From NCBI RefSeq assembly GCF_014695385.1, contig NZ_JACJOD010000031.1:248001-312000 (forward strand): a stretch of 64,000 bases of DNA. Direction: 5' to 3'. The first letter of the stretch is position 1, and every line of letters starts with the position of its first letter. The DNA comes from Trichocoleus sp. FACHB-46 (lineage in GTDB: Bacteria; Cyanobacteriota; Cyanobacteriia; FACHB-46). Below, piece after piece: positions 19,310-27,797 of the stretch. The translations under genes were made by a program, and so were the position numbers. The notes beneath the pieces are model-generated. The model made no database searches and had not been told where the DNA came from. It saw only the letters and a list, made by a program, of their open reading frames with translations.

Positions 19310-19556
19310 AAATGCTTCAAACGCTAAGTTTCATTTATTTTCAATTTCGCTGCAATGGATCCGGTTTAATTTGTGCCACAAAGTAGTGTGGGGAAGAAAT
19401 CTGGTTTCCGATTGCCTAACTAGCATCATCCTAGAATCCATACAATACATGCACCCACCGTCGCAAATTTTACATTTCCCTAAATTCTGTAAATTCTGTT
19501 AATTTCTGTTCATTGACTTGGTGCTACTAGGCTCCTTTTTCGCAGGTTTAGCCGTT
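19310..19556. promoter_or_regulatory. Divergent promoter region, pap-like cluster / rbcR, with 9-bp tandem repeats
   Basis: The 247 bases between two divergent genes must hold both promoters. Three tandem copies of a near-9-mer lie at 19481-19489, 19490-19498 (both TAAATTCTG) and 19499-19508 (TTAATTTCTG), ending about 48 bases before the rbcR ATG. LysR genes often bind their own divergent promoter, so these repeats are candidate operator or promoter elements; binding is inferred. Confidence 0.5.
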
Positions 19557-20564
19557 ATGTCTGACCTTCCTTTTACCTTGGATCAACTCCGTATTCTCAA
19601 AGCGATCGCCGCTGAGGGAAGTTTTAAGCGAGCCGCTGACAGCTTGTATGTCTCTCAACCCGCCGTCAGTTTGCAGGTACAGAATCTAGAGCGGCAACTC
19701 GATGTGCCGTTGTTCGATCGTGGTGGTCGTCGGGCTCAACTGACTGAAGCAGGTCACCTACTCCTCAGTTATGGGGAAAAAATCTTAACGCTGTGTCAAG
19801 AAACCTGTCGCGCGATCGAAGATCTGCAAAATCTTCAAGGTGGCACCCTAATTATTGGCGCGAGTCAGACGACGGGAACTTACCTACTTCCTCGCATGAT
19901 TGGCTTATTTCGGCAACAATACCCTGATGTCTCGGTGCAGTTGCATGTTCATTCCACCCGTCGAACCTCCTGGAGTGTAGCGAATGGACAAATTGACCTA
20001 GCGATCATTGGAGGTGAGGTTCCTCCTGAACTGCAAGATTCATTAGAAATTATTCCCTACGCTGAAGACGAACTCGCACTCATCTTACCTGTGTTTCACC
20101 CTTTTGCTAGGGTGAGCACGATTCAGAAAGAAGACCTTTATAAACTGCAATTTATTGCCTTAGACTCTCAATCCACGATTCGCAAGGTGATTGATCAAGT
20201 TTTAACGCGCTGTGGGATTGAAACTCGTCGCCTCAAGATTGAGATGGAACTCAATTCGATAGAGGCGATTAAAAATGCGGTGCAGTCGGGCTTAGGAGCT
20301 GCCTTCGTCTCAGTTTCTGCCATCGAGAAAGAACTTCAGATGGGGGTCCTCCATCGAGCCAGGATTGATGAGGTCGTCGTTCAACGGATGCTCTCTGTCA
20401 TTCTCAATCCCAATCGTTACCGCTCGAAAGCCGCTGAAGCGTTTCTCAATGAGGTTTTGCCTCGATTCAGCAACCCAAATCAGGCTATGAAGCAGCACGA
20501 GGCTGAACTTTTAGGATCACCTGCTTTGACAACCGTGGTTCCTAGCTCTAGTGGTATGGATTAG
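19557..20564 (+). CDS. rbcR: RbcR, LysR-family regulator
   Basis: This is a LysR-type transcription factor of the cyanobacterial and plastid RbcR/Ycf30 group, which controls Rubisco and carbon-fixation genes. The N-terminal winged HTH reads [20 protein letters not shown] then [13 protein letters not shown]. The effector domain begins at [15 protein letters not shown] and includes the strongly conserved [22 protein letters not shown] chose ATG 19557 because [14 protein letters not shown] is the invariant start of this group; the 13 codons before it are not part of the family. The protein has 335 residues. It is divergent from the pap-like cluster and 25 bases ahead of a Ser/Thr kinase gene. 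Confidence 0.94.
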
Positions 20565-20589: not shown

Positions 20590-22023
20590 ATGGATCTTTA
20601 CTGCACCCGTCCAGGCTGCCTAAGACCGCAAAATTCGTTTGCTGATTTAGATAACACCCAAGTTTTGAAAACAGTGCCACAAAAGTATTGCACCACTTGT
20701 GGCATGTCTTTAATTTTGCTGGGTCGTTACTTGCCACTGAAGCTCTTAGGCAAAGGTGGCTTCGGGGCTGCATTTCTGGCTCGCGATCGCTACACCCCAG
20801 CAATGCGCCAATGTGTGGTTAAGCAGTTCCAGCCGTCAGGTGACTTGAGTGCTGATCAGATTGAAGTAGCTAAAAATCTTTTTGAGCGTGAGGCCGAAGT
20901 TCTAGAGCAACTAGGCAACAACCACCCCCAGATTCCTGATCTATTTGCTTTTTTCTCCTTGACGGTGCCGAGCCGCACTTCTAATAAGCAAGACGAATTT
21001 TTCTACTTGGTGCAGGAGTTTATAGACGGCCAGAATATGGAGGAGGAGCTAGCTCAGAAGGGGCAGCTTTCCCAGGATGAGGTGGTGGAAGTTTTGGTGG
21101 AAGTACTGAAGATTTTGCGGTTTGTGCATGACAATCATTCCATCCATCGCGACATTAAACCCTCCAACATCATGAGGCACCGCAATGGTCGTATTTATTT
21201 GCTAGACTTTGGCGCGGTTAAGAAGGCGGCAGGCGCTACCTCAAAATCCTCAACTGGAATCTACTCCACTGGCTATGCCCCACCCGAACAAACCTCCGGC
21301 GGCCAAGTGTACCCCGCTACAGATTTATACGCCCTTGCGGTCACTTGTATTCATTTATTGACAGGCAAAGAACCTGGTGACCTCTTTGACTCTTACAGCA
21401 ATTCCTGGAATTGGCGATCGCAGGTAACGCTTAGCGCTCGCCTGGCTGATGTTTTAGATCGGATGCTCTTAGCCACACCAAGCCAGCGCTTCCAATCTGT
21501 AGCCGAGGTCACGGCAGCACTGGCACTAGGGGCTACCCCGTCAGTTTCTCCCCCGCCGCCTGTTTCCCCAGGTACTGCAGCAACTCCCCCGCCGCCTGTT
21601 CCAGTTTCCACTTCCCCGACTCCTCCACCACCACCTGTTGTTAGTCCTCCTGCCCCACCCTCGATGACTCGGCCTCGCTTCTCCACGCTGGAACTACTAG
21701 GTGGCGCGGCATTTACAGGGTTTGAGGGAGGACTAATTGCGATCGCGCTTACGAGCTTGTTCCAACCGCTTTGGATTGGGGTTGGAGTCTCGCTGTTGGT
21801 TTTGAGTGTCTTGGTGTGGGCTCAATCTCGGCGTGTGATCGAAAAGGTGGATCTGGTGATTATTACCGGAATTACGCTGGCTCTAATGTATCTGCTTAGG
21901 GGGTTCTGGACGTTGACGTTCTTCCCCAACATTTTAATTGTCGTGACCTTTGCTGGACTGATCGCGATCGCAGTGGCCGCTCTATTTCGTCTGGTTTACA
22001 CCCTATTGTCTCGTTTTCTGTAG
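20590..22023 (+). CDS. Membrane-anchored 4-Cys Ser/Thr protein kinase
   Basis: This is a 477-residue Hanks-type kinase of the cyanobacterial 4-Cys class. The N-terminal zinc-ribbon-like module has Cys5-x4-Cys10 and Cys34-x2-Cys37. The kinase domain shows LGKGGFGAAFLAR, VVKQF, HRDIKPSNI, DFGAVK and YAPPEQ, all catalytic residues present. A Pro-rich linker (PPPP and TPPPP runs, about residues 315-365) joins it to a C-terminal region with about four membrane segments. The architecture places the kinase in the cytoplasm and the end in the membrane. The next two genes follow at 9 and 6 bases and encode membrane-anchored solute-binding proteins, so the three probably work together as a sensor. Confidence 0.9.
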   Translation: MDLYCTRPGCLRPQNSFADLDNTQVLKTVPQKYCTTCGMSLILLGRYLPLKLLGKGGFGAAFLARDRYTPAMRQCVVKQFQPSGDLSADQIEVAKNLFEREAEVLEQLGNNHPQIPDLFAFFSLTVPSRTSNKQDEFFYLVQEFIDGQNMEEELAQKGQLSQDEVVEVLVEVLKILRFVHDNHSIHRDIKPSNIMRHRNGRIYLLDFGAVKKAAGATSKSSTGIYSTGYAPPEQTSGGQVYPATDLYALAVTCIHLLTGKEPGDLFDSYSNSWNWRSQVTLSARLADVLDRMLLATPSQRFQSVAEVTAALALGATPSVSPPPPVSPGTAATPPPPVPVSTSPTPPPPPVVSPPAPPSMTRPRFSTLELLGGAAFTGFEGGLIAIALTSLFQPLWIGVGVSLLVLSVLVWAQSRRVIEKVDLVIITGITLALMYLLRGFWTLTFFPNILIVVTFAGLIAIAVAALFRLVYTLLSRFL

Positions 22024-22032
22024 GCAGGATTC

Positions 22033-23109
22033 ATGGCTCAGAAAAATGAAACGGCTACACTCGTCTTGGCGCTTTTAATTACCCTTGGTTTAGTCGGCGG
22101 GGGTACTGTGTGGCTCATGAGACGCTCTGGCGCTCCATTAGGTGGGTTGCTACAGCCAACGTCACAAAAGAAATCTGACTCACGTAGTGATTTGCCACCA
22201 GCCGTTGCTAGCCAGCCAGGAAGCAAACTTCAAGGCTTTGCAGACGTTCAAAATATACCCTCTGGGTCCTTTAAGTACGGGGGCAGCACTTCGTGGGCTC
22301 CTCTGCGTTTAACCGTTGACTCCGCAGTTCAAGCAGCCAGACCTGAATTTCAACTGCGTTACTTGGGACCTGATTCAGGCTCGGCCAGTTCGGGTAGTGG
22401 CATTCGCATGTTAATCAACGATCGCTTGGCCTTTGCTCAGTCTTCTCGACCGATTTTGGAGTCAGAGGCAAATAAGGCAGAGCAACAAGGGAAAGAACTC
22501 AAGCAGATTCCAGTTGCGATCGATGGGATTGCCGTTGCGGTGAATCCAGGACTCAACTTGCCAGGGCTAACACTGGCGCAACTCAAAGCCATTTACACAG
22601 GCCAAACTACCAATTGGAATCAGGTGGGAGGCCCTAACCTTAGTATCACACCATACACCCGCCCCACGAACTCCGGTGGTACAGTTGAACTGTTTGTCGA
22701 AGATGTGTTGGGAGGGCAAACGTTCGGCCCTACTGTAGAATTTGTTTCTACGACCACACAAGCGATTCGCAAGTTGGCGGAAGATCCTGGGGGAGTGTAC
22801 TTTGCTTCCGCTCCCGAAGTAGTGCCCCAATGCACAATTAAGCCTTTACCTTTGTCTCGTCAGGGCAGCAGCTTCATCGCTCCCTATCAAGCGCCACTGG
22901 TTACCTCCTCGCAATGCCCCGCTCAGAGAAATCGGCTGAACACAGATGGATTTCAACAGGGACAGTATCCTTTAATCCGAAATTTGTACGTGGTGATTCA
23001 ACAAAATGGTCAAGCTGAAGAAAAAGCAGGCGAGGCTTATGCCAATTTTTTATTGACAGAAGAAGGCCAAAATCTAATTGCCAGAGCAGGTTTTGTCAGG
23101 ATTCGCTAA
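22033..23109 (+). CDS. Membrane-anchored PstS-like periplasmic binding protein
   Basis: This 358-residue protein starts with a membrane anchor (KNETATLVLALLITLGLVGGG), then a Ser/Pro-rich spacer, then a type II periplasmic binding fold of the PstS phosphate-binding family. Landmarks are YGGSTSWAPL, DSGSASSGSGI, GIAVAVNPGLNLPGLTLAQLKAIYTGQTTNWNQVGG and PTNSGGT, the last two matching the PstS ligand loops. No pstC, pstA or pstB is nearby. The gene sits between a membrane kinase and a second anchored binding protein whose N-terminal anchor is similar. A sensor role rather than transport is the better reading, by inference. Anion specificity is not certain. Confidence 0.87.
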   Translation: MAQKNETATLVLALLITLGLVGGGTVWLMRRSGAPLGGLLQPTSQKKSDSRSDLPPAVASQPGSKLQGFADVQNIPSGSFKYGGSTSWAPLRLTVDSAVQAARPEFQLRYLGPDSGSASSGSGIRMLINDRLAFAQSSRPILESEANKAEQQGKELKQIPVAIDGIAVAVNPGLNLPGLTLAQLKAIYTGQTTNWNQVGGPNLSITPYTRPTNSGGTVELFVEDVLGGQTFGPTVEFVSTTTQAIRKLAEDPGGVYFASAPEVVPQCTIKPLPLSRQGSSFIAPYQAPLVTSSQCPAQRNRLNTDGFQQGQYPLIRNLYVVIQQNGQAEEKAGEAYANFLLTEEGQNLIARAGFVRIR

Positions 23110-23115
23110 GCCGCT

Positions 23116-24534
23116 ATGTCACCCAAAAATGAAACTGCCGTTCTTGCTGCCTCATTGTTAATCACTCTAGGTCTTCTGGGGGCTGGTGCTTGGTGGATGA
23201 CGCATCGCACCCCTGGTTCTGGCATCAGCACGCTGCTCAATCCTAAAGCGGGTGAGTCTCCTGATGCCAAACTGGATTCCCAGCAACCCATCATTAGTTT
23301 TGGGGAACAGACGCTGAGCCCAGGAGCACCCAGCCCCCGCAAAGAGAACGGCATGAAAGCCCTTGCTCAGGAAAGCTATGACCAAGCAATTGGTAGTTTT
23401 ACGGCGGCTTTGAAAGAGCAGCGCAATGACCCCGAGACTTTAATTTTTCTGAATAATGCTCGTGTTGGTCAGCGCAAAAGCTATGCGATCGCAGTTGTAG
23501 CTCCTGTGAACACGGACCTAAATGGAGCTTTAGAAATTTTTCGCGGGGTAGCTCAAGCGCAAACTGAAATTAATCGGGCTGGAGGCATTAACGGCACATT
23601 GCTCAGGGTCGCGATCGCCAATGACGACAACAATCCAGAGCTTGCCAAACGAGTTGCTGCGGCCTTAGCAGAAAACAATCAAATCTTAGGGGTGGTGGGT
23701 CACTTTGCTAGTGACGCTTCTTTAGCAGCAGGCTCCGTTTATGAAGCTGAAGAGCTGGTTGCCATTTCTCCTGTCAGCACTTCTGTAAAACTATCAGGCT
23801 TTAGCAATTATGTTTTTCGCACTGTCCCTAGCGACTATGTGGCAGCCAGAGCATTAGCAGATTACATGCTGAGCAAGTTACAGCAAAAGAATGCCGCGGT
23901 TTTCTTCAATTCTCAGAGTAACTACAGCAAATCTCTCAAATCTGAATTTGTCAGCTCGGTTCTGACGCGAGGTGGACAAGTAACCGCAGAATTTGATCTG
24001 GCTGAGGCCAACTTTAGTGCGGCCAAAAGTATTGAGCAAGCCGTGAAGCAAAATGCTGAAGTGCTCATGTTAGCCGCTACGACCGATAGCCTAGACAGAG
24101 CGCTCCAAGTTGTTCAGCTCAATCGCAAACGCCTTGATGTTTTAGGTGGTGATGATGTTTACACCCCTAAAACCTTAGAAATCGGGGGCGATGCCGCCGC
24201 AGAAATGGTCTTGGCTGTGCCGTGGCATATTAACACTGATCCAACTTCTCCCTTTCCCCAGGAATCTCAAAAACTGTGGGGTGGTGATGTCAACTGGCGG
24301 ACTGCCCTGGCTTATGATGCGACGCAAGCGCTCTTTGCAGCCTTAAGGCAAAGCCCAACCCGAGCAGGCATCCAACAGGCGTTATCTAGTGCCGACTTCT
24401 CTACGACAGGCGCTTCAGGCACCATTCGATTTCTGCCTTCTGGCGATCGCAATGCTTCGGTTCAACTCGTCAAAATTGCTCCTGGCTCGCGATCGGGAAC
24501 GGGTTATGATTTTGTCCCTGTGCCATCACAGTAG
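23116..24534 (+). CDS. Membrane-anchored type I binding protein (branched-chain amino acid receptor-like)
   Basis: This is a 472-residue protein. Its anchor (KNETAVLAASLLITLGLLGAG) resembles that of the preceding gene. A short helical TPR-like segment follows (ALAQESYDQAIGSFTAAL, about residues 78-105), then a Leu/Ile/Val-binding-type receptor fold: YAIAVVAPVNTDLNGA, AQTEINRAGGINGTLLRVAIANDDNNPELA, LGVVGHFASDASLAA and VAISPVSTS. No permease genes are close. The shared anchor with the PstS-like gene implies duplication of the N-terminal module onto two unrelated binding domains. It is the end of the kinase set. The ligand is unknown. Confidence 0.87.
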   Translation: MSPKNETAVLAASLLITLGLLGAGAWWMTHRTPGSGISTLLNPKAGESPDAKLDSQQPIISFGEQTLSPGAPSPRKENGMKALAQESYDQAIGSFTAALKEQRNDPETLIFLNNARVGQRKSYAIAVVAPVNTDLNGALEIFRGVAQAQTEINRAGGINGTLLRVAIANDDNNPELAKRVAAALAENNQILGVVGHFASDASLAAGSVYEAEELVAISPVSTSVKLSGFSNYVFRTVPSDYVAARALADYMLSKLQQKNAAVFFNSQSNYSKSLKSEFVSSVLTRGGQVTAEFDLAEANFSAAKSIEQAVKQNAEVLMLAATTDSLDRALQVVQLNRKRLDVLGGDDVYTPKTLEIGGDAAAEMVLAVPWHINTDPTSPFPQESQKLWGGDVNWRTALAYDATQALFAALRQSPTRAGIQQALSSADFSTTGASGTIRFLPSGDRNASVQLVKIAPGSRSGTGYDFVPVPSQ

Positions 24535-25106
24535 TTGCCCACTCAGTTCCCGCAGTAATATTCCACCTCACTAATTTTGGCTTCGCCTGCCTAGGAGCAC
24601 CCTAAGTTTAATCTGGCGAAGTAATATAGCAATCCAAATGGGTTGTGCCTGTTATAGCAAGCAATTAATTTTGATTTCACTGTCAATTTAGCGAAATCAA
24701 CTGGATTTACACTGATATTTTCTGGCTTAACTAAAGATATACTGCTGTGGCAATCAGTACGAGATAATACTAAAACTGGACCTTGTCGCCTGCCAATTAA
24801 CTTAGTAAACAAGTTAACAATATTAATCATTTTATTCTTGTATAGCAGTTTCCAAGAATTTGGGAATAAATAGGATTTGGGACAGATATATCCTTTACGC
24901 GCATCACTCATTCACTACTTTAGGATAGCTATATATTTTTTTATTGAAGAACTAGTTAAAGTCCGGATTGAACAAAGAATTATTCCTACACTAGAATGAG
25001 TGGACTTCACCACTCTCAAGCCATCTTTACTAAATCCACTGCTTTCGCAGGGAATTAAAATAACAAGAGCTTGAAACAATAATTTTACAGCTTAGCTTTG
25101 CTGCCG
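24535..25106. other. Intergenic region, A/T-rich, no convincing gene
   Basis: These 572 bases separate the kinase/binding-protein set from the histidine kinase. A minus-strand frame at 24591-24911 has no recognisable domain and an A/T-rich composition, so I do not call it. Around 24626 the text TATAGCAATCC resembles one arm of the inverted repeat at 42759. The histidine kinase promoter should lie in the last ~150 bases. Confidence 0.5.
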
Positions 25107-27797
25107 ATGGATAGTGTAAATCAGCTATTAAAGCATGCGCCAATTGGCATTCTCTACGAAAGTTTAGAGGGTGGTATTTTAAAGGCTAACTCAGTTTTTT
25201 GTCGCTTGATTGGTTATAGCGAAGCTGAACTACGACGGCTAGATTATCGCAGCATTACTCATCCAGAAGATTTACCCTTAGAACTTAATTTACTACAGCA
25301 AATCATTCAAGGCCAGCCAAGTGAAACGGTAATAAAAAAACGCTTTTTCTCTCAGGATGGCTCGCTTATCTGGGCAGAAGTGAAACTGGCTTTAGTTGGT
25401 GAGCCAGTAGATGAAGACAGTTACCTGATGATTTTTGTCACAGACTTGAGCGATCGCCAGCGTGTAGCGGAAGAAATTCAACAGCGACGAGAACGCGAGG
25501 CCTTACTAAGTGACATTTCGGCCCAAATTCGCACTACGTTTGATTTCTCAGCGATCGTCCAGCTTGCCGTAGTCCGACTACAACAGGCCCTAGACACAGA
25601 TCGCGTCTTAGCTTATCAGTTGCTACCAGATCAAAGCGGCACCTGTATTGCCGAGTCAGTTAGCTTGTGCTATCCAGCAATGCTGGGGCAAAGTTTTCCA
25701 GCGGAGTGCATCCCTCCGCCTTATATAGAGGCATACCGTCTAGGCAAGCTTTGGTGTGTAGCCAATGTAGAGCAAGAACCTTTGGCAGACTGCCACCGAG
25801 CCATGCTCAAACAAGTGCAGACTCGCAGCATGATTGCCGTTTCTATTCAACGCATTCAGGAAACAGTAGATCCACAAAAGCGGACCTTGTGGGGCTTGCT
25901 GGTCGTCCACCACTGTCGAACTCCGCGAAACTGGACGACCGATGAGCAGCAATTAGTTCAAGCGGTCGCCGACCAAGTCACGATCGCGCTAGAGCAAGCT
26001 AGCTTACTGCAACAGTTGCAAACCTATGCTCAAGAATTAGAAGATCACGTCAACCAACGCACTCGATCTCTAGAGCGATCGCTGCAATTTGAGCAACTCA
26101 TCCGCAGCTTAACCGAAACCCTCCGCAAAGACTTATCAGAAGATCAAGTCCTCAAAGCCGCTGTAGAAGGCTTAGTCCAAACTTTAGCAATCGATGGCTG
26201 TTATGCCAGCCTGTTTCACCCCCGTCAGCGATCGCTAGAAGTTCGCTATGAACACTCCTCCCCTCCCTCAGATCAGTCCTTAGTCGGGCAACGCTTTGCA
26301 ATCCAAAGTTGGCCAGAACCATGCCGTCAAAAGCTCTTAGCGGGCGAAGCCTGTATTCATGAAGTTTCCTGGGCATCCCTTCGAGAGTTACCTTTACCCA
26401 TATTGGTTCGCAGCGATCGCGCTGCCTCAGAACCGTTAAACTCTGACTCAACAGTGATTACCCAACTGATTAGCCCCATCCTGGATAATCAAGGTTTGAT
26501 TGGAGCCTTGTGTGTCTACCACACTCAACCCCGCCACTTTGAGCCAGCCGAAATCAAGCTGATAGAGCAGGTAGCCAACCAATGCGCGATCGCCTTACGC
26601 CAAGCCTATTTGTATCGCCAAGAACATGAGCAACGCGCTAGCGCTGAGCATTTCCGTTTATTTCTAGAGAAATCGATTGATATCTTTGTCGAATACGACC
26701 AAGAGCAGCGGTATATAGCCATCAATTCCGCTGGCCTCGCCTTGTTGGGATACCCGCTACCCGAAGTTTTGGGTAAAACCAACCGAGAGCTGCTAGGTTC
26801 CTCCGGGCAGGAGCTTGATCAACTCATTGCCCAAGCCTTCAAAACCGGAGAACCCGTTTTCGTCGATCACGAGCTTTCTCTACCATCAGGCACCAGACTG
26901 TTTGAAACAATCTATACACCCATCGCTGATCCAGCCGGAGTTGTGCAGCGAGTCGTGGGAGTCTGTCGAGACATCAGCGATTTTAGAAGACAGTGGCAAC
27001 TCTTAGAAACTCAAAATCATCAACTCACTGAAACAACTCGGCTAAAAGAAGAATTCATTGCGACTACTAGCCATGAATTGCGGACCCCTCTGACCGCGAT
27101 TTTGGGGTTCTCCAACGTTCTATTGCAAGAATTTTTTGGCCAGCTCAATCCCAAACAAAAAGACTATATCGAGCGCATCCACCTGAGCGGGCAGCACCTG
27201 CTCGACTTAATTAATGACATTTTGGATTTGTCACGCTTAGAGGCCGATCGCCTAGAACTCGAACCTCAGCAGATTTTTATCAATGATATTTGTGAAAGCG
27301 TCATTAGTTTGATTCAAGAGCATGTCGAGAATCAAAATCTGAGCTTAGAAATGGAAGTTGAGCCAGAACTAGAATATATCGTGGCTGATCCTAGACGCCT
27401 CAAACAGATGTTGCTTAACCTACTGACCAATGCCGTGAAGTTCACTCCAGCGGGGGCAGTGGGAATGAAAGTCTACCGCTCTCACCAGCAACAATCCGAT
27501 AGTATCCCAGATACCGTTAATTTTCTGGTGTGGGACACAGGAATTGGCATCGCCAAAGCCGAGCAAGATCTACTATTTACGCCATTCTCACAAATTGACA
27601 ACTCTCTGTCTCGGCAACACCAAGGCAGCGGACTAGGGCTGGTAATTACCCGCAAGTTAGCAGAACTCCATGGCGGCTCCATTACACTGGAGTCTGAGAG
27701 CGGAAACGGGTCACGCTTTATCCTGTCCTTGCCACTACAAGAGTCTGCGCAGCCCTTGCTAGGCTTGAATTACATAGCCATAAAGCCCATGACCTAG
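25107..27797 (+). CDS. PAS-GAF-GAF-PAS hybrid sensor histidine kinase with possible dual-Cys bilin GAF
   Basis: This is an 896-residue soluble kinase. Domains in order are PAS (about 5-115), GAF1 (140-295), a coiled coil, GAF2 (335-505), PAS (515-635), HisKA with phosphoacceptor His656 in SHELRTPL, and HATPase with N-box, DTGIGI and GSGLGLVI. GAF1 has the phytochrome/cyanobacteriochrome signature: Cys229-His230 (DCHRAML) and LWGLLVVHHC. It also has Cys201 exactly 28 residues earlier, at the place of the DXCF second cysteine, here written AECI. It may therefore bind a bilin and respond to violet, blue or green light. GAF2 has no such cysteine. No response regulator is adjacent. ATG 25107 is preferred to the TTG nine bases upstream. 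Confidence 0.85.
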   Translation: MDSVNQLLKHAPIGILYESLEGGILKANSVFCRLIGYSEAELRRLDYRSITHPEDLPLELNLLQQIIQGQPSETVIKKRFFSQDGSLIWAEVKLALVGEPVDEDSYLMIFVTDLSDRQRVAEEIQQRREREALLSDISAQIRTTFDFSAIVQLAVVRLQQALDTDRVLAYQLLPDQSGTCIAESVSLCYPAMLGQSFPAECIPPPYIEAYRLGKLWCVANVEQEPLADCHRAMLKQVQTRSMIAVSIQRIQETVDPQKRTLWGLLVVHHCRTPRNWTTDEQQLVQAVADQVTIALEQASLLQQLQTYAQELEDHVNQRTRSLERSLQFEQLIRSLTETLRKDLSEDQVLKAAVEGLVQTLAIDGCYASLFHPRQRSLEVRYEHSSPPSDQSLVGQRFAIQSWPEPCRQKLLAGEACIHEVSWASLRELPLPILVRSDRAASEPLNSDSTVITQLISPILDNQGLIGALCVYHTQPRHFEPAEIKLIEQVANQCAIALRQAYLYRQEHEQRASAEHFRLFLEKSIDIFVEYDQEQRYIAINSAGLALLGYPLPEVLGKTNRELLGSSGQELDQLIAQAFKTGEPVFVDHELSLPSGTRLFETIYTPIADPAGVVQRVVGVCRDISDFRRQWQLLETQNHQLTETTRLKEEFIATTSHELRTPLTAILGFSNVLLQEFFGQLNPKQKDYIERIHLSGQHLLDLINDILDLSRLEADRLELEPQQIFINDICESVISLIQEHVENQNLSLEMEVEPELEYIVADPRRLKQMLLNLLTNAVKFTPAGAVGMKVYRSHQQQSDSIPDTVNFLVWDTGIGIAKAEQDLLFTPFSQIDNSLSRQHQGSGLGLVITRKLAELHGGSITLESESGNGSRFILSLPLQESAQPLLGLNYIAIKPMT

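Follow-up and report, generated by a model that had tools for sequence, protein, structure and literature searches.

What are two solute-binding proteins doing directly behind a membrane Ser/Thr kinase if no transporter gene adjoins them? This question is raised by a stretch of 64,000 nucleotides from the cyanobacterium Trichocoleus sp. FACHB-46 (contig NZ_JACJOD010000031.1, positions 248,001 to 312,000), which is referred to as the window in the following. An earlier note on this DNA had described a kinase gene, then, after a gap of 9 bases, a PstS-like gene and, after another 6, a branched-chain-receptor-like gene, an order and spacing that agree exactly with the open reading frames, all of which lie on the + strand. 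It had missed a LysR-type regulator gene that also belongs to the conserved block. The features are as follows (window coordinates):

19518-20564, +, RbcR/CcmR-type LysR regulator (LysR domains), 25 bases 5' of the kinase
20590-22023, +, 4-Cys Ser/Thr kinase, 477 aa (ORF and domain matches)
21670-22020, +, C-terminal membrane bundle of the kinase (residue conservation, AF2 helices)
22033-23109, +, PST, PstS-type (type II PBP) anchored binding protein, 358 aa, 9 bases after the kinase
22033-22119, +, KNET anchor of PST, residues 1-29 (anchor comparison and profile)
23116-24534, +, LIV, Leu/Ile/Val-receptor-type (type I PBP) anchored protein, 472 aa, 6 bases after PST
23116-23202, +, KNET anchor of LIV, residues 1-29 (anchor comparison and profile)

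The nearest solved relative of the LysR protein is 5Y2V, a 'Rubisco operon transcriptional regulator', and in 40 of 47 orthologous loci the gene directly 5' of the kinase is likewise of the RbcR type. Promoter and terminator scans of the locus gave nothing above shuffles, with no terminator-like site between the genes; operon status is assigned from gene spacing only. On the 3' side, the block is followed by a PAS/GAF-type hybrid sensor histidine kinase (25098-27797), and a similar gene comes after the block in two other loci (L084, L116).

The kinase and its two binding proteins

The kinase matches the 4-Cys prefix model NF045510 (43 bits, cut-off 24) and Pkinase PF00069 (115 bits), and is organized into a Cys motif (residues 1-43), the kinase domain (~44-311), a Pro-rich linker and a four-helix membrane region (~361-477). 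Cys 5, 10, 34 and 37 are invariant or nearly so among 54 kinase orthologues, as are the G-loop, K78, HRD 186-188 and D206, and by these motifs the enzyme appears to be catalytically competent. Beyond the kinase domain, the orthologues mostly carry three to four hydrophobic segments, and the AF2 model places helices at residues 366-390, 394-413, 419-441 and 445-476 with moderate confidence. Together with the domain matches, this bears out the previously claimed 4-Cys kinase with C-terminal membrane segments. The mean identity to the window kinase is 44% in the membrane region versus 21% in the variable Pro-rich linker, and the bundle harbors the conserved polar residues E379, Q412, R415, E418, D421 and R467. 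Foldseek recovered only the PknB-type kinase fold with the AF2 model, and none of its top results matched the four-helix bundle.

The two proteins encoded downstream are both complete periplasmic binding protein folds that are unrelated to each other. PST is matched by PBP_like_2 PF12849 (115 bits, profile positions 10-267 of 267) and by TIGR02136, the latter with a score under its own cut-off, and is related to Sll0540 (9L8J). It keeps the GGST and SSR motifs and lacks the phosphate loop RxDGSGT of PstS. This loop reads RPTNSGGT in the window protein, and its Ser is replaced by Gly in 45 of 48 orthologues. Since GGT stands in place of SGT, phosphate is not to be assumed as the ligand. LIV is matched by Peripla_BP_6 PF13458 (114 bits, 23-327 of 343) as well as PF01094, and has LivJ proteins among its relatives. 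Its residues S199, T222 and D346 are conserved in 99%, 86% and 90% of the orthologues, respectively, and correspond in a pairwise alignment to LivJ S79, T102 and E226, presumably the ligand-contact residues, while the equivalent of Y202 is lost. An amino-acid-like ligand is plausible for LIV, because the residues matching S79 and T102 are kept and E226 is represented by Asp.

Complete folds of this kind could also serve transport. In that case, PST and LIV would be auxiliary binding proteins that serve Pst and Leu/Ile/Val or urea permeases encoded far away, with the kinase as a mere neighbor. Complete Pst and BPD_transp_2 permeases are indeed encoded elsewhere in the same genome (Pst on contigs C13 and C21; LIV/urea-type on C40, C8, C24, C6 and C34). 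Yet, the Pst set on C21 already has its own PstS-like gene alongside, as the LIV-type set on C6 has a LIV-like gene, and the N-terminal anchors of PST and LIV contain no Cys and hence no lipobox Cys. The neighboring ORFs confirm the claimed absence of transporter genes next to the kinase-PST-LIV block, and among the 20 examined PST or LIV loci that are not linked to the kinase, just one (L126) has a permease-like neighbor. Considering also the fusions of these sensor domains to kinase, CHAT and caspase effectors described below, a role in transport appears improbable.

The KNET anchor and linkage to the kinase

PST and LIV begin with closely similar membrane anchors, MAQKNETATLVLALLITLGLVGGGTVWL and MSPKNETAVLAASLLITLGLLGAGAWWM, respectively, that follow the motif MxxKNETxxLxxSLLITxGLxGGGxWW. 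The same motif recurs across 49 PST and 70 LIV proteins. Anchor identity between the two families amounts to 52.5%, compared to 53% and 57% within them and 13% for composition-preserving shuffles, so that the match, as judged from sequence, is far beyond chance and the matching anchors proposed in the earlier note are real. Anchors from the same locus are slightly more similar than permuted pairs (0.642 versus 0.604), a value reached in none of 2000 permutations. Recent gene conversion was considered as the source of the anchor similarity and rejected as unlikely, since codon identity at identical anchor residues is no higher within loci (48% in the same locus versus 46% between different loci).

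The anchor is in wider use than in this operon. Of 116 cyanobacterial genomes, 68 contain sequences that match a 33-residue profile of it, and all examined full-length carriers have binding domains, i.e. LIV, PST, Sll0540-type PBP_like_2 or NMT1-type combined with OmpA. The Sll0540-type and NMT1-OmpA proteins do not adjoin the kinase, and the anchor is therefore not exclusive to it. Three proteins (L185:2874-4442, L187:2559-4136 and L188:2688-4289) combine a KNET-like anchor with an NMT1-type domain and a C-terminal OmpA domain; such proteins could bridge the inner membrane and the cell wall.

Physical linkage was assessed in a survey of 340 cyanobacterial genomes, for 150 of which the best kinase matches were listed; PST and/or LIV had to lie on the same strand at most 6 kb downstream of the kinase. 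At least 82 of the 150 listed orthologues, from 10 family-level groups (uncorrected for relatedness), are linked in this way, split into 17 loci with both sensors, 33 with PST and 32 with LIV, and inspection revealed two further linked loci (L090, L097). The orders PST-LIV, LIV-PST, PST-LIV-PST and LIV-LIV-PST all occur with varying copy number, and the kinase often stands without either sensor. Thus, the recurrent neighborhood expected for the three genes holds for the adjacency of kinase and sensor, whereas the complete set of three genes is found at few loci (17 of the 150 listed) and is hence not obligatory.

How much does the anchor reveal about the kinase? It might be a general sorting or clustering tag of surface binding proteins that is uninformative in this respect, leaving the operon as a loose nutrient-response cluster. 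The carriers far from the kinase would fit this idea, as would some anchored proteins that are retained in genomes lacking the kinase or carrying a broken copy. In two genomes, for example, the kinase is damaged by internal deletion or truncation next to an intact PST gene (L121:3330-4013 and L122:4765-5349). The former locus had at first looked like an independent gene for the membrane bundle only; since a remnant covering kinase residues 7-76 is still encoded upstream, it represents a decayed kinase. Against a general tag, KNET-anchored proteins track the kinase, being present in 62 of 75 genomes with it versus 6 of 41 without (raw counts, uncorrected for relatedness). The recurrent kinase-sensor adjacency and the loss of both anchor tail and bundle from 4-Cys fusions (see below) also speak against it. 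We therefore regard the tag explanation as rather unlikely, though it deserves more weight than an auxiliary function in transport.

Fusions of sensor domains to effectors

Strong support for a signal from the binding domains to the kinase comes from natural fusions. The genome of the window itself encodes a 770-aa kinase-TM-LIV protein (L053), in which the sensor part shares 50% identity with LIV. Four further proteins join a 4-Cys kinase, a membrane segment and LIV in one frame (L062, L069, L070 and L074), with 51-55% identity to the window kinase and 45-49% to the window LIV, and additional kinase-TM-LIV (L071-L073, L075, L076, L079) as well as kinase-TM-PST proteins (L065, L066, L067) were found. 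As the kinase domain is inside and a single membrane segment follows, the sensor must lie outside in these fusions.

The same sensors occur on other effectors. These include CHAT-TM-LIV (L055 from the window's own genome, L040, L041 and L043), CHAT-TM-PST (L064) and a 2963-aa frame with open 5' end (L077:3108-11999) that comprises caspase domains, an nSTAND ATPase, a lipase-like domain and a C-terminal LIV domain. Two proteins look by eye like receiver-like-TM-PST fusions (L063:1430-3121 and L068:208-1977), the front part of L063 being without Pfam match. In the window's own genome, L055 lies ~5 kb from the gene of another anchored LIV protein (L054) on contig C22, and a 680-aa protein encoded on C21 (L056) combines a front that looks PIN-like by eye, although Pfam has no match for it, with a membrane segment, a TPR and a LIV domain.

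The occurrence of the sensors on CHAT and caspase-nSTAND proteins may suggest that the kinase acts in an anti-phage or conflict system whose binding domains sense attack, and PADLOC models of the PD-T4-6 kinase match it strongly (300 bits). The same models also match the paralogue L053, however, and the signal is therefore a non-specific effect of the kinase family; PST and LIV match no defence model. As the kinase is moreover linked to a regulator gene of the RbcR type at a locus that is conserved, a role in defence is very unlikely.

The 4-Cys-kinase-TM-LIV fusions have neither the four-helix bundle nor the KNET tail. The simplest reading is that bundle and tail would serve to join separate chains and become dispensable once these are covalently one. 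The membrane segment of the fusions is not claimed to derive from the KNET anchor: it is similar by eye, and scores only 0-8 bits compared to 31-50 for true anchors (shuffles up to 5.7). Because both sensor types are fused to kinases, the linkage is conserved and linked permeases are lacking, the assignment of PST and LIV as putative sensors of the kinase rather than transporter parts is well supported on sequence grounds. This speaks strongly for the central proposal of the earlier note, in which anchored binding domains signal to the kinase.

Known systems and the proposed receptor

The accompanying statement that no comparable system had been characterized turned out to be wrong. In Actinobacteria, GlnH-GlnX-PknG constitutes a characterized pathway from a binding protein to a kinase (PMC6069109, PMC9769921), for which direct contact of GlnX with either GlnH or PknG had yet to be demonstrated (PMC9769921). 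It resembles the window block in the operon-like combination of a Ser/Thr kinase with a solute-binding protein, in the presence of a four-TM component and in the signalling use of the binding protein there. The N-terminal part of PknG is also Cys-rich and rubredoxin-like. The substrate in PknG systems is an FHA-domain protein (OdhI/GarA). In contrast, PknG is soluble, whereas the window kinase has four C-terminal helices; GlnH is a lipoprotein, whereas the window anchors lack Cys; and GlnX is a separate four-TM protein with two periplasmic domains, for which the window block has no gene, its bundle being part of the kinase. Moreover, the window system features a pair of anchored binding proteins that differ in fold. 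By analogy, it may work like GlnH-GlnX-PknG and the other systems below.

Closer at hand, a cyanobacterial survey from 2007 described the STK-ANF kinases alr0344, Ava_2791 and CwatDRAFT_0902 as well as the cbSTKI-TM kinases, in which the kinase domain is followed by 3-6 TM segments and for which no partners were described (PMC2176072). The former unite a kinase with an ANF_receptor (Leu/Ile/Val-type) domain, as in the paralogue L053. Unlike the separate genes of the window, they are single chains, and a PST partner, a four-helix bundle or a KNET anchor is unreported for them. The cbSTKI-TM kinases resemble the window kinase by domain layout alone, with TM segments after the kinase domain and no other domain. 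In Mycobacterium tuberculosis, pstS2 and pknD form a predicted operon (PMC3322341), so that here, too, a gene of the PstS type is paired with one for a membrane Ser/Thr kinase. The gene pstS2 lies 5' of pknD, whose product has one TM segment and an extracellular propeller of its own, and we know of no common anchor in this pair. Within partial literature coverage, nothing beyond the 2007 survey was found on cyanobacterial kinases with binding-protein sensors or on CHAT proteins with binding domains. Both the division into a kinase with several separate sensors and the anchor that these sensors have in common hence look new, being undescribed in the literature searched.

Taken together, the operon most likely encodes a receptor Ser/Thr kinase in split form, in which the membrane bundle of the kinase associates with anchored binding proteins that are interchangeable, a reading to which we assign a probability of roughly 0.74. 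The kinase domain would be cytoplasmic and tied to the membrane through its own four-helix bundle, while two signal-anchored proteins would present PstS-type and Leu/Ile/Val-type clamshells outside. We infer that the common KNET anchor docks on the kinase bundle. Closure of either clamshell upon ligand binding could then alter the contact between anchor and bundle and thus kinase activity. The kinase may relay this nutrient signal to cytoplasmic targets, and one might speculate that the neighboring RbcR-type regulator is among them. Complex formation, signal direction, ligands and substrate are all putative in this scheme. An extended version, in which KNET is a dedicated plug for interchangeable binding-protein subunits, making the kinase a modular receptor with multiple inputs and the RbcR-type regulator its output, connecting external nutrients to CO2 fixation, is tentative and on balance rather doubtful.

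Few stimuli of bacterial Ser/Thr kinases are known, and here two candidate sensors are identified by gene. Their role is directly testable through the fusions in culturable cyanobacteria, and the conserved anchor may represent an interaction code. If the receptor reading is true, binding-protein sensors and cytoplasmic effectors such as kinase, CHAT and caspase domains would be swapped as modules, either fused or split, across the cyanobacteria.
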